NCBI GenBank assembly: GCA_022925895.1
Contig: JAKSYS010000030.1
Span: 124,001-188,000 of the forward strand
Direction of reading: 5' to 3'
Origin: Fragilaria crotonensis
Lineage: Eukaryota; Bacillariophyta; Fragilariophyceae; Fragilariales; Fragilariaceae
DNA length: 64,000 bases
The position numbers and the translations under genes are program-made. This document shows positions 43,202-46,737 of the stretch, in pieces (positions within the stretch are counted from its first letter, which is position 1; every line of letters starts with the position of its first letter). The notes under the pieces were generated by a model. The model searched no databases, was not told where the DNA came from, and worked only from the letters and a program-made list of their open reading frames with translations.

Positions 43202-43681
43202 TCAACTTTCATCATCATCGTCGTCATCATCATCATCGTCCTCGTCGTCGTCGTCATCATCAAGCAAGATTGCTCCACTTTCAACTCGCTTCCAGTACTC
43301 GTATGTCTCTGGATCATTGTTATAATATATATAGATCCCAAATCCAACACAGATGAGAAACATAAGAGGATTAAGCAATTGCTGCAAGCCGGGCTTTGGT
43401 GGAGGTGGGATGAGCATAGGGGCAATCGGCGGAGGCTTAGAGTAGTCCACAGGGTTGAGGCCGTACGGGTATTCTTGATTCCGGATCTTCCCTTTATTGA
43501 CTTGTTCGATTTTCCGACGCCTCACTCCGAGCTGTGCGCTGACGCTGTCCGTTGCATTTCCTCGACAGGACTGGCCAAATGCTGTTCTTCGCGGTGCTTT
43601 TCCGGACAACTGCTGCCACAGGACCCCACGGGCTATTGGAAGAGCTGTCTTGCAGGAATGTGTTCTCAGCAGCGAGTTCAT
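43202..43681 (-). CDS. Small single-pass membrane protein, probably mitochondrial
   Basis: A single exon of 159 residues. The N-terminus (MNSLLRTHSCKTALPIARGV) is basic and lacks acids, fitting a mitochondrial presequence. Residues ~65-95 are Pro-rich with a 'NPVDYSKPPPIAP' word. A membrane helix is at ~104-122 (LMFLICVGFGIYIYYN), followed by 'DPETYEYWKRVESG' and a tail of about 18 acidic residues encoded by GAC/GAT repeats. The layout of one helix plus an acidic tail resembles small respiratory-complex or import accessory proteins, but I recognise no family. It is convergent with the F-box/LON gene, 173 bp away. Confidence 0.7.
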   Translation of the reverse strand: MNSLLRTHSCKTALPIARGVLWQQLSGKAPRRTAFGQSCRGNATDSVSAQLGVRRRKIEQVNKGKIRNQEYPYGLNPVDYSKPPPIAPMLIPPPPKPGLQQLLNPLMFLICVGFGIYIYYNNDPETYEYWKRVESGAILLDDDDDDEDDDDDDDDDDES

Positions 43682-44555
43682 TGCAGCAAATCCCGTTCGT
43701 TGAATCTTGCAGTCAGCTTTTTCTTTAGTTGGATGAATGAGTCAATAAGACAGATCAACAAATCCAAAGCGCAATAGGAAGCAAAACGATGCAACTGCTT
43801 TCTTGAGTGGATTTCTGACTTACTTCGTCATCACTTGTTTCTTCCACTGGTTGTCGTAGATGTCGGATCATAGTGGACAGCGGACGTTCAATGATGGATG
43901 GAGAATGAAAAGAGCCTGCTCGATTGAGTCAGGATTCCATCTCGAACCCTTTCGACTTTCGCTACCAGGAAATACCGGTGGTACCTGGTACTGTCAAAAC
44001 AGGTGCCTGTGTATTGTGGAGTACTCGTGTATGATGTGTTGCCTGTACATCTAAATTGTAAATTGTACAGTACTCGGGAGTACTGGTACCACTGTGCACA
44101 ATGAACCAGGTAGTCCAGTACTCCAGTGCCATTAGAAACGGTCCGGTAAATGACGGTTTGAACCCCGATCGAAGACAGCTACAGTAGATACAGTGTTCCA
44201 TCTGCCGAACCTTTCCTGATAGTACAGTATACAGTACTGGTAACAACTGCAGAACACAGACACCTGGGACGTATGCACATACGGCGAGAACGTGAGAACA
44301 CGTCTCGCTTCACTCCAACAACTCTTTTTCGCGGCCATGGACCGCTCAAGTTGAAGGCTATGAGTCGACTCCACTCCGTAATGAACATACATACAAAACA
44401 CAAGTGCGCGGTATCCTGCAAGGATTTGATTTTTACCTTCACTGACACTCACGTCTATCAACCTGAATCTGATCAGATTGGTCAGGTCAGCAGAGCAAAT
44501 TGTCATTGGCTCTGTTATTAAAAAAAAAAACAATACCAATACTTCCTTTCTTCCG
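43682..44555. other. Intergenic, GTAC-rich
   Basis: No gene supported; a 162-codon reverse frame at 44,132-44,620 has no domain and overlaps the start of the FNR gene. GTAC words cluster at 43,970-44,240. A poly-A run (44,520-44,530) lies about 25 bases before the FNR-fusion start. Confidence 0.5.
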
Positions 44556-45998
44556 ATGATGCACCGTATCGCAATTGTCGTTGCATCGCTCGTTCTCCTT
44601 GGCGCAGATGGGTTCACCACCTATTCGCCGTCCCAACGGTAAGTGCTGTTTCGTTGATTGGATTGATTCATTCTTGGGATCGACTTATTCGGCGTACGAC
44701 ACACGGCGAGGCGAGGCGAGTGATCGTTTCGATAGTTACCAAGGTCGCGATCTATCTTGCGAGTACCTACAGGGTGGATGGGGAGATGCGAATCTGCAAC
44801 CTGTCGTATTCTCCCGTCGACAACTAAATCTCTGAACGACTCCCTTACACCCCTCCTAGGTCCAGGAATGCTGTCACCTTGCAGGCCTCACCTCTGCAGC
44901 TGAACCGTTCCATATTGGGACTTAAGACGAGCCGCGCTAAGAATCATGGCAACTCCTTGTCACCGTCGGCCAAAACGAATCCTACGCGCCAAATTGCCAT
45001 AACGGTAGGATCATGGAGATTTTGTACTATATCTGCGTCACCGACAACATTCTCAAAACATCCCATTGCGTCTTAGGTTCTCAAAAACGTCGCCACATCC
45101 TTCTTCATGCTAGCTCTCCTTCACACGCCAGCCGCTCTAGCGGCCAAGAAATCCACCGTCGTTGTAGAGCACTTGCACACGGGACAAAAGATTGCAAACT
45201 TTTTTCGATCATTTGGATTGCCGGATGTCGCTGTCTTGGCCCTCATTTCGGCCCTCCCAGTTGTGGAGCTCCGAGGTGCCATCCCCGTGGGGATATGGAT
45301 GGGATTGCCTATCACTACGGTCCTTCCGGCTTGTGTATTTGGGAATATGCTGCCCATCATACCAATCTTGTACCTGCTACGCAATGAACGACTCAAGTAA
45401 GTGACAAACAATGTTTGTTCAATGTGTATCCGTTGTCCCGCATCATGCGGTTGATTGGTCTCACTCATTCAAAAAAATTCGATTTCAGAAAGTTGATGGC
45501 CCCAATTTTGGATCGCGCTGAAAAAAAGTCGGCGAGTTTGGGTGTCGGTTCCCTTCAGAAGCAATGGGTTTCGCTAGCTGCCTTTGTAGGTGTTCCCCTT
45601 CCTGGAACGGGAGCTTGGACTGGAGCCATGGGGTCCTTTTTACTTGGAATGCCCACAGCTGTCGCTCTCTCTTCCATTTTTGCGGGTGTTGTGTCGGCAG
45701 GACTTATTATGTCCGCAATTACCTTGGCTGGCAAGAAAGGGGGGGAATCGCTGCCTTGGCTGTGTTGTTTGCCTTTACAGCGAAAGAACTCTTGTTTGGT
45801 GAGAAGAAGCAAGACTTTTTGGAGGCTAGTCCATACTGGGATCAGACTGACGTTCCAGTCAATGTGTACAAGAACAAGGAACCCTTCATCGGCAAGGTCA
45901 TCTCCACCAAGAGAATTGTCGGGCCACAGGCCACTGGTGAGACTTGCCACATCATCATCGACCACAAAGGCAAATTCCCATACTGGGAGGGACAATCT

Positions 45999-46033
<35 letters not shown>

Positions 46034-46737
46034 TGGAAAGCTACATTCTGTTCGTCTGTATTCCATCGCGTCATCCCGCTACGGCGATGACATGACTGGA
46101 AAGACTGGTTCACTTTGCGTTCGTCGCGCTACCTATTGGTGTCCCGAGCTCAAGGCCGACGATCCTGCGAAGAAGGGCATCTGCTCCAACTTCTTGTGTG
46201 ACACCATGCCTGGAGATGAAGTGCAAATGACGGGACCCGCTGGCAAGGTCATGTTGCTGCCCGAGGAGGATCCCAACACCGACTACATCATGGTGGCGAC
46301 CGGTACTGGTATCGCTCCCTACCGTGGTTTTGTCCGACGTCTCTTCGTTGAGTCAACACCCGCGGCTGCTGCCTACAAAGGTCAGGCCTGGTTGTTCTTG
46401 GGCGTCGCCAACAGCGATGCGTTGCTGTACGACGACGAGTGGCAGTCGGTTAAGGCGGCCCACCCCGATCAGTTCCGGTTGGACTATGCGTTGTCCCGTG
46501 AGCAAGAGAACAAGAAGGGGAGGCAAGATGTACATTCAGGACAAAGTTGAAGAATACGCCGACGAAATCTTCACCAAGCTCAACAACGGTGCTCACATTT
46601 ACTTTTGTGGTTTGAAGGGAATGATGCCTGGCATCCAAGATATGCTGAAGGATGTTGCGTCGTCCAAGGGCTTGGACTATGAAGAGTGGTTGAAGGGACT
46701 CAAGGCTAAGAAGCAGTGGCACGTTGAGGTGTACTAG
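44556..46737 (+). CDS. petH: Small-multidrug-export-like membrane domain fused to plastid ferredoxin-NADP reductase (two frame breaks)
   Basis: Exons 44,556-44,638, 44,860-45,004, 45,077-45,396 and 45,489-46,737 join in phase. Exon 1 is a signal peptide ending [12 protein letters not shown]; exon 2 is transit-peptide-like. Exons 3-4 encode a COG2426/small multidrug export-type domain: '[20 protein letters not shown]', [16 protein letters not shown] and a last helix '[16 protein letters not shown]'. With no stop this continues into FNR: '[18 protein letters not shown]', [13 protein letters not shown] (FAD), '[14 protein letters not shown]', '[15 protein letters not shown]' (NADP) and the C-terminal aromatic Tyr of 'WHVEVY'. 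Breaks: G7 at 45,739 should be G8; G4 at 46,517 should be G3. Total ~598 residues. FNR reduces NADP+ with ferredoxin electrons; the membrane part could tether it to the thylakoid. FNR identity is sure; the fusion needs transcript proof. Confidence 0.8.

Follow-up and report, generated by a model that had tools for sequence, protein, structure and literature searches.

A four-exon gene on the forward strand of the Fragilaria crotonensis window (the whole stretch of DNA analysed, 64,000 nucleotides, part of contig C241 in an assembly of 62.1 Mb and 881 contigs) is predicted to encode a single plastid-targeted protein of about 598 residues, in which a complete PF06695 membrane domain is joined to a plant-type ferredoxin-NADP reductase (FNR). 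Judged from the sequence, the gene is very likely fused in some form. The full model, in which a nuclear diatom gene produces a genuine membrane-anchored plastid FNR by translational fusion, is also probable, if somewhat less secure.

Gene structure and frame breaks

The gene spans positions 44556-46737, from a start codon at 44556 to a TAG stop codon at 46735-46737, and is interrupted by three GT-AG introns of 221, 72, and 92 bases. Exon 1 (44556-44638), as read by eye, encodes a signal peptide, a Phe at the likely cleavage site, and the beginning of a transit-like region, which continues in exon 2 (44860-45004) beyond intron 1 (44639-44859, GTAAGT...TAG). Intron 2 (45005-45076, GTAGGA...TAG) is followed by exon 3 (45077-45396), which encodes a second hydrophobic segment and then the first part of the PF06695 domain with the motif ELRGAIP. 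Beyond intron 3 (45397-45488, GTAAGT...CAG), exon 4 (45489-46737) comprises the second part of PF06695 (45489-45745, including GVVSAGLIM), a terminal membrane helix (45744-45809) that lies in the FNR frame, and the FNR itself (45810-46737), which runs from QDFLEAS to WHVEVY and the TAG stop. Read from the N-terminus, the plant-type FNR thus follows a signal peptide, a transit-like stretch, a second hydrophobic segment, the whole of PF06695, and the terminal helix.

The reading frame of the gene is broken twice, once in each direction. The first is a run of seven G residues (G7, 45739-45745) inside the membrane protein, at which the FNR frame is -1 relative to the PF06695 frame; the second is a GGGG at 46517-46520 inside the FNR, where a paralogue on contig C31 has GGG. 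The initial annotation described one path from signal peptide through membrane domain to FNR and took a complete FNR to be reached with a single correction. Domain matches confirm the order, but the path needs two indels, the second break having been overlooked. The assembly has many breaks of this kind. The silicon transporter family has 19 matches in the genome (18 above the family cut-off, best E 4e-193), as suits a diatom, and its genes on C349 and C637 appear as overlapping pieces in different frames. Similarly, the 36 HSP70 matches group into 19 places, four of which carry frame breaks (C358, C452, C548, and C881:132913-134688). The breaks in the window are thus most simply explained by sequencing error, and we infer that both are assembly indels. 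As a side observation, open frames with several silicon transporter units were found at G000:C97:29749-33762 (1456 amino acids, three units) and on C771 (1008 amino acids, two units).

Putative plastid presequence

A Phe at the cleavage site is the rule for diatom plastid targeting, and by composition and by eye the N-terminus has the features of a bipartite diatom plastid presequence, namely a signal peptide, a Phe where it would be cleaved, and a basic transit region. The 57-residue transit region, formed by the end of exon 1 and by exon 2, contains eight Lys/Arg and 16 Ser/Thr residues and no Asp/Glu. The second hydrophobic segment (45077-45145) ends in ALAA and resembles a thylakoid transfer segment, which suggests a thylakoid transfer signal, with the inner envelope as the alternative site.

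A separate targeting exon for the FNR was sought at 44001-45790 by scanning for an ATG followed by a signal-type hydrophobic N-terminus, defined by a simple hydrophobicity threshold, and a GTRNG donor. The scan returned exon 1 (from two neighbouring ATGs) and one match at 45299-45397, which, as part of the PF06695 core, was taken as a chance match. Within the scanned region, this combination of features thus gave no separate signal-peptide exon for the FNR, in agreement with the earlier proposal that no second targeting peptide precedes it. It follows that the window FNR has no visible route to the plastid except through the fusion.

The PF06695 membrane domain

A membrane domain of the COG2426 type had been recognised in the initial annotation, and the profile search bears this out: exons 3 and 4 combined cover all PF06695 positions 1-121. 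The exon 3 frame matches positions 1-39 with 40.2 bits (E 5.9e-10) and the exon 4 frame positions 40-121 with 67.0 bits (E 3e-18), both above the curated cut-off of 30.7. The window protein resembles the Sm_multidrug_ex proteins of PF06695/COG2426 in these profile positions and in ELRGAIP, and differs from them in its plastid presequence and C-terminal FNR. PF06695 is described as a distant relative of DedA, PF09335 (PMC7818093). The Fragilaria genome gave six PF09335 (DedA/VTT) matches and a single PF06695 match, that of the present gene, although a missing match does not prove absence.

For comparison, a set of 83 bacterial homologues was compiled from the best 80 of at least 582 relatives detected with a single search pattern and from the three bacterial PF06695 proteins of a plasmid collection. 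Among the best 80 of the at least 582 relatives in this single-pattern scan, the closest prokaryotic PF06695 proteins are mostly from Clostridia. A search of viral contigs with the fused protein gave no match. All 13 columns that are invariant among the 83 homologues are retained in the window protein; seven of them (P137, E140, R142, P169, V216, G228, and G249) lie outside the search pattern, while the other six fall within P-L-P-G-T-G-A-W-T and are conserved by construction. Some near-invariant residues are changed; these include a Pro that 82 of the 83 homologues share and an Ala that 80 of them share.

Another PF06695 arrangement was noted in bacteria. Open frames of 762-776 amino acids around PF06695 occur in four of 80 genomes of the WOR-3 phylum (G024, G045, G050, and G055). 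The two that were read, L119 (G045:C89, 776 amino acids) and L120 (G024:C2, 762 amino acids), each combine PF06695 with a protein that by eye looks like Omp85/BamA in a single open frame, with a lipoprotein-like signal between PF06695 and its partner.

The FNR domain and its paralogues

Compared with solved structures, the FNR aligns over query residues 4-296 of 296, with E 8.5e-133 to 9kk7_A and with 3lo8 as the other best match; the query begins at VPVNV, spans the second frame break, and has three erroneous residues prefixed. NAD_binding_1 is matched above the cut-off (E 5.6e-15), whereas FAD_binding_6 (PF00970) is matched weakly (E 0.077; 13.8 bits, below the cut-off of 21.1). The C-terminal Tyr of plant-type FNR is located at the NADP site. 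It is present in the window protein, whose WHVEVY end aligns to the PDB chains, so that the FNR domain extends to the C-terminal Tyr as in plant-type plastid FNR (petH). The earlier view that a whole FNR is present is upheld once the second break is bridged.

Three plant-type FNR were found in the genome (window, C31, and C613), and a PF06695 partner was detected in the window copy only, a missing match not being proof of absence. The C31 gene (L003, 2030-3199, G000:C31) is an FNR gene of the conventional kind, with a single intron and a signal peptide of its own; it contains several small indels, which are probably assembly errors. The third gene (L118, 1136-2500, G000:C613) encodes a divergent plant-type FNR (52% identity) in a single 454-residue open frame, with its own signal peptide, as judged by eye, and about 100 additional residues N-terminal to the FNR domain. 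Because these conventional and divergent genes exist, the fused FNR would be an extra isoform and not a replacement. Two petH entries are included in a proteomic table for Thalassiosira oceanica (PMC5570362). Four weaker FNR-like matches in the genome have 29-30% identity (E 3.9e-5 to 5.2e-4). Two PF00175 matches, L001 and L002 (on C862 and C199), were rejected as FNR, since by eye they read as cytochrome b5 reductase-like.

Over 294 codons, with codons beside gaps excluded, the window and C31 FNR share 90% amino-acid identity and differ at 137 third positions and at 43 first and second positions together. Differences fall mostly at third positions; therefore, both copies appear to have been kept by selection, and in this codon comparison the window FNR shows purifying selection. 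The same pattern bears on the idea that the window gene is a decaying pseudogene and that the conventional C31 FNR does the work. The two frame breaks would fit decay, but the membrane motifs are intact, C31 itself has several breaks, and breaks are found across the assembly. Together with the predominance of third-position differences, these observations make a pseudogene improbable.

The terminal helix and the junction with FNR

In the set of 83 homologues, the proteins end near the position of G7, and a clear further helix was seen in one only, L085, from candidate division WOR-3. For this reason, 80 genomes from the phylum of L085 were searched, and PF06695 was found in 69 of them. If L085 starts at the ATG at 2393, it has a signal peptide ahead of its core and terminal helix, which is also the order of the window protein. 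A profile was built from 30 homologues, all from this phylum, 24 of which by eye have the further C-terminal helix and six of which lack it. Against this profile, the window protein scores 116.0 bits with its core alone; the tail of the unbroken frame brings the score to 116.4 and that of the FNR frame to 121.9, in the latter case with a match that extends to residue 283. Among 200 shuffled helices, the mean score was 118.1 and the best 122.9, and two of the 200 reached 121.9. The helix thus adds a modest gain of about 6 bits, of which about 2 are obtained on average with shuffled helices, and the effect is partly one of plain hydrophobicity. The profile gain and the by-eye alignment point the same way, namely that the helix after G7 would be the end of the membrane domain.

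This placement changes the meaning of G7. The initial annotation took it for the junction of the two domains; the profile scores and the helix in the FNR frame instead put it inside the membrane protein, before the last helix. An open frame at 45564-46550 runs, without any mending, from the last membrane helix straight into the FNR. As the helix after G7 appears to belong to the PF06695 protein, the fusion of helix and FNR is independent of reading G7 as G8. That correction matters for connecting the last helix with the preceding part of the membrane domain, and it is to this extent that the proposed dependence of the join on G8 holds; helix and FNR, by contrast, share one unmended frame.

Programmed -1 slippage at G7 has also been considered; it would yield the fusion from some messages and an FNR-less membrane protein from the rest. 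At G7 as written, the FNR frame does lie at -1 relative to that of PF06695. However, G7 is out of phase with the usual slippery heptamer, the unslipped tail, which runs to 46095, contributes next to nothing to the profile score given above, and slippage would leave the second break, which shifts the frame the other way, unexplained. Slippage is accordingly very improbable, and assembly indels are retained as the reading of both breaks.

At the DNA level, homology with the C31 FNR starts at CAAGAC (45810), which encodes the QD of QDFLEA, directly after the terminal helix. In the C31 gene, by eye, an intron separates the same sequence from an upstream signal peptide exon (MKTAFCVATLFASASAFSPAAKPAFR). 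This boundary is relevant to an alternative in which two neighbouring genes were falsely joined because the assembly lost a stop codon, an intergenic stretch, and an FNR presequence exon. The many frame breaks in the assembly, two of them in this gene, are in its favour, as are the signal peptides that both other FNR genes have of their own. Nevertheless, such a loss would have to begin immediately behind the terminal helix, end at the start of FNR homology, and yet keep the single unmended frame common to both. Moreover, a search of the genome gave no other copy of the joined stretch; the FNR part alone recurs, on C31 (a missing match does not prove absence). A false join is thus unlikely, though it is the strongest of the competing explanations.

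The protein might also be fused in a different form, if an intron at 45686-45780 removed G7 together with both the last core helix and the terminal helix and kept the frame. This pair was chosen for its acceptor from many in-frame GT-AG pairs within exon 4: the acceptor, TTTGCCTTTACAG, comes with a pyrimidine tract, and 95 bases ahead of the next exon base there is a GT in frame. On the other hand, the donor GTGTTG is poor compared with the GTAAGT, GTAGGA, and GTAAGT of the gene's other introns, and splicing would remove G249, V250, A253, and G254, which are kept in 83, 75, 82, and 75 of the 83 homologues, respectively. We consider this variant slightly less plausible than the two-gene explanation, and the unspliced fusion with its terminal helix remains the preferred model.

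Comparison with known FNR anchoring

The N-terminal CpcD-like domain of cyanobacterial FNR is a phycobilisome-binding domain rather than a membrane domain. The window FNR is comparable in that an N-terminal domain would fix its location, but the domain in question is a membrane domain. In vascular plants, TROL and Tic62 hold FNR at the thylakoids, and the position of FNR is thought to steer linear versus cyclic electron flow, according to excerpts from PMC11912148 and PMC13322767; both tethers are absent from Chlamydomonas (PMC11912148). Plant-type plastid FNR is thus either soluble or bound by these separate tethers, whereas the anchor of the window FNR would be the PF06695 domain of the same polypeptide. 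The Chlamydomonas PSAF-FNR (PMC11912148) is likewise an FNR fused to an integral thylakoid protein, but it is engineered, and its anchor is a photosystem I subunit. Tethering by PSAF-FNR is described as shifting linear to cyclic flow (PMC13322767).

Among the top-ranked titles and abstract openings of the open-licence literature, no PF06695-FNR fusion was encountered; the gene models of other diatoms may contain one without comment. In excerpts from a paper on diatom plastid transporters (PMC9546453), the terms ferredoxin, FNR, multi-drug, and DedA do not occur, and multidrug occurs twice, both times for a MATE protein. The CP12-FNR-GAPDH complex, as far as it is described in the excerpt from PMC7992989, was set aside as having no bearing on the fusion. 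The window gene represents a new version of a known enzyme and not a new kind of system.

Topology and proposed function

According to the positive-inside rule, positively charged loops of membrane proteins remain on the inner side. The central loop contains on average 9.5 Lys/Arg and 4.0 Asp/Glu residues in the 30 homologues of the profile and eight Lys/Arg and three Asp/Glu in the window protein; the C-terminal tail of the homologues has on average 1.6 Lys/Arg and 0.1 Asp/Glu. Because the central loop is positive, it is expected to face the cytosol in bacteria and the stroma in the window protein. From this loop, the chain would cross the membrane via the last core helix and return via the terminal helix. 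Since the terminal helix adds a second crossing, the C-terminus, and hence the FNR, is predicted to be on the stromal side; homologues without the helix would have their C-terminus on the opposite side.

An AlphaFold2 model was obtained for L085, not for the window protein (mean pLDDT 86.6, pTM 0.75, 80 sequences). In this model, and for L085 alone, the terminal helix comprises residues 181-203, with block means of 70-81. The modelled helices of L085, consisting of two hairpins, long helices, and the terminal helix, fit the description of PF06695 in PMC7818093, and on our reading the hairpins may be re-entrant. When the L085 model was compared with the PDB by Foldseek, there was no match at E 0.001 or lower.

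The window protein may reside in the thylakoid or the inner plastid envelope membrane with its FNR facing the stroma. For this membrane form the calculated mass is 54.5 or 56.9 kDa, against about 35 kDa for a soluble FNR. There, the anchored FNR would take electrons from ferredoxin and either produce NADPH or feed cyclic flow at a fixed membrane site, working beside the soluble-type FNR from another gene. From the predicted anchor, we infer that NADPH might be produced at a membrane site. The PF06695 part, with its invariant residues intact, may in addition transport a substrate. It is a speculative extension, and on balance a doubtful one, that the DedA-related transporter domain and the stromal FNR cooperate in one polypeptide at the thylakoid or envelope, with the FNR beside a proton- or ion-coupled carrier, such that ferredoxin/NADPH turnover is coupled to transport or cyclic flow and the fusion replaces TROL and Tic62 in diatoms. 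If the fusion is real, the question of FNR location could be put to a direct test in a diatom that has one FNR carrying its own membrane domain alongside another of the soluble type, and the poorly known PF06695 family would gain a partner reaction.

Elsewhere in the window, the reverse strand contains, at 43202-43681, an open reading frame of 159 amino acids, whose product has a single hydrophobic segment and, towards its end, a long stretch of Asp residues.
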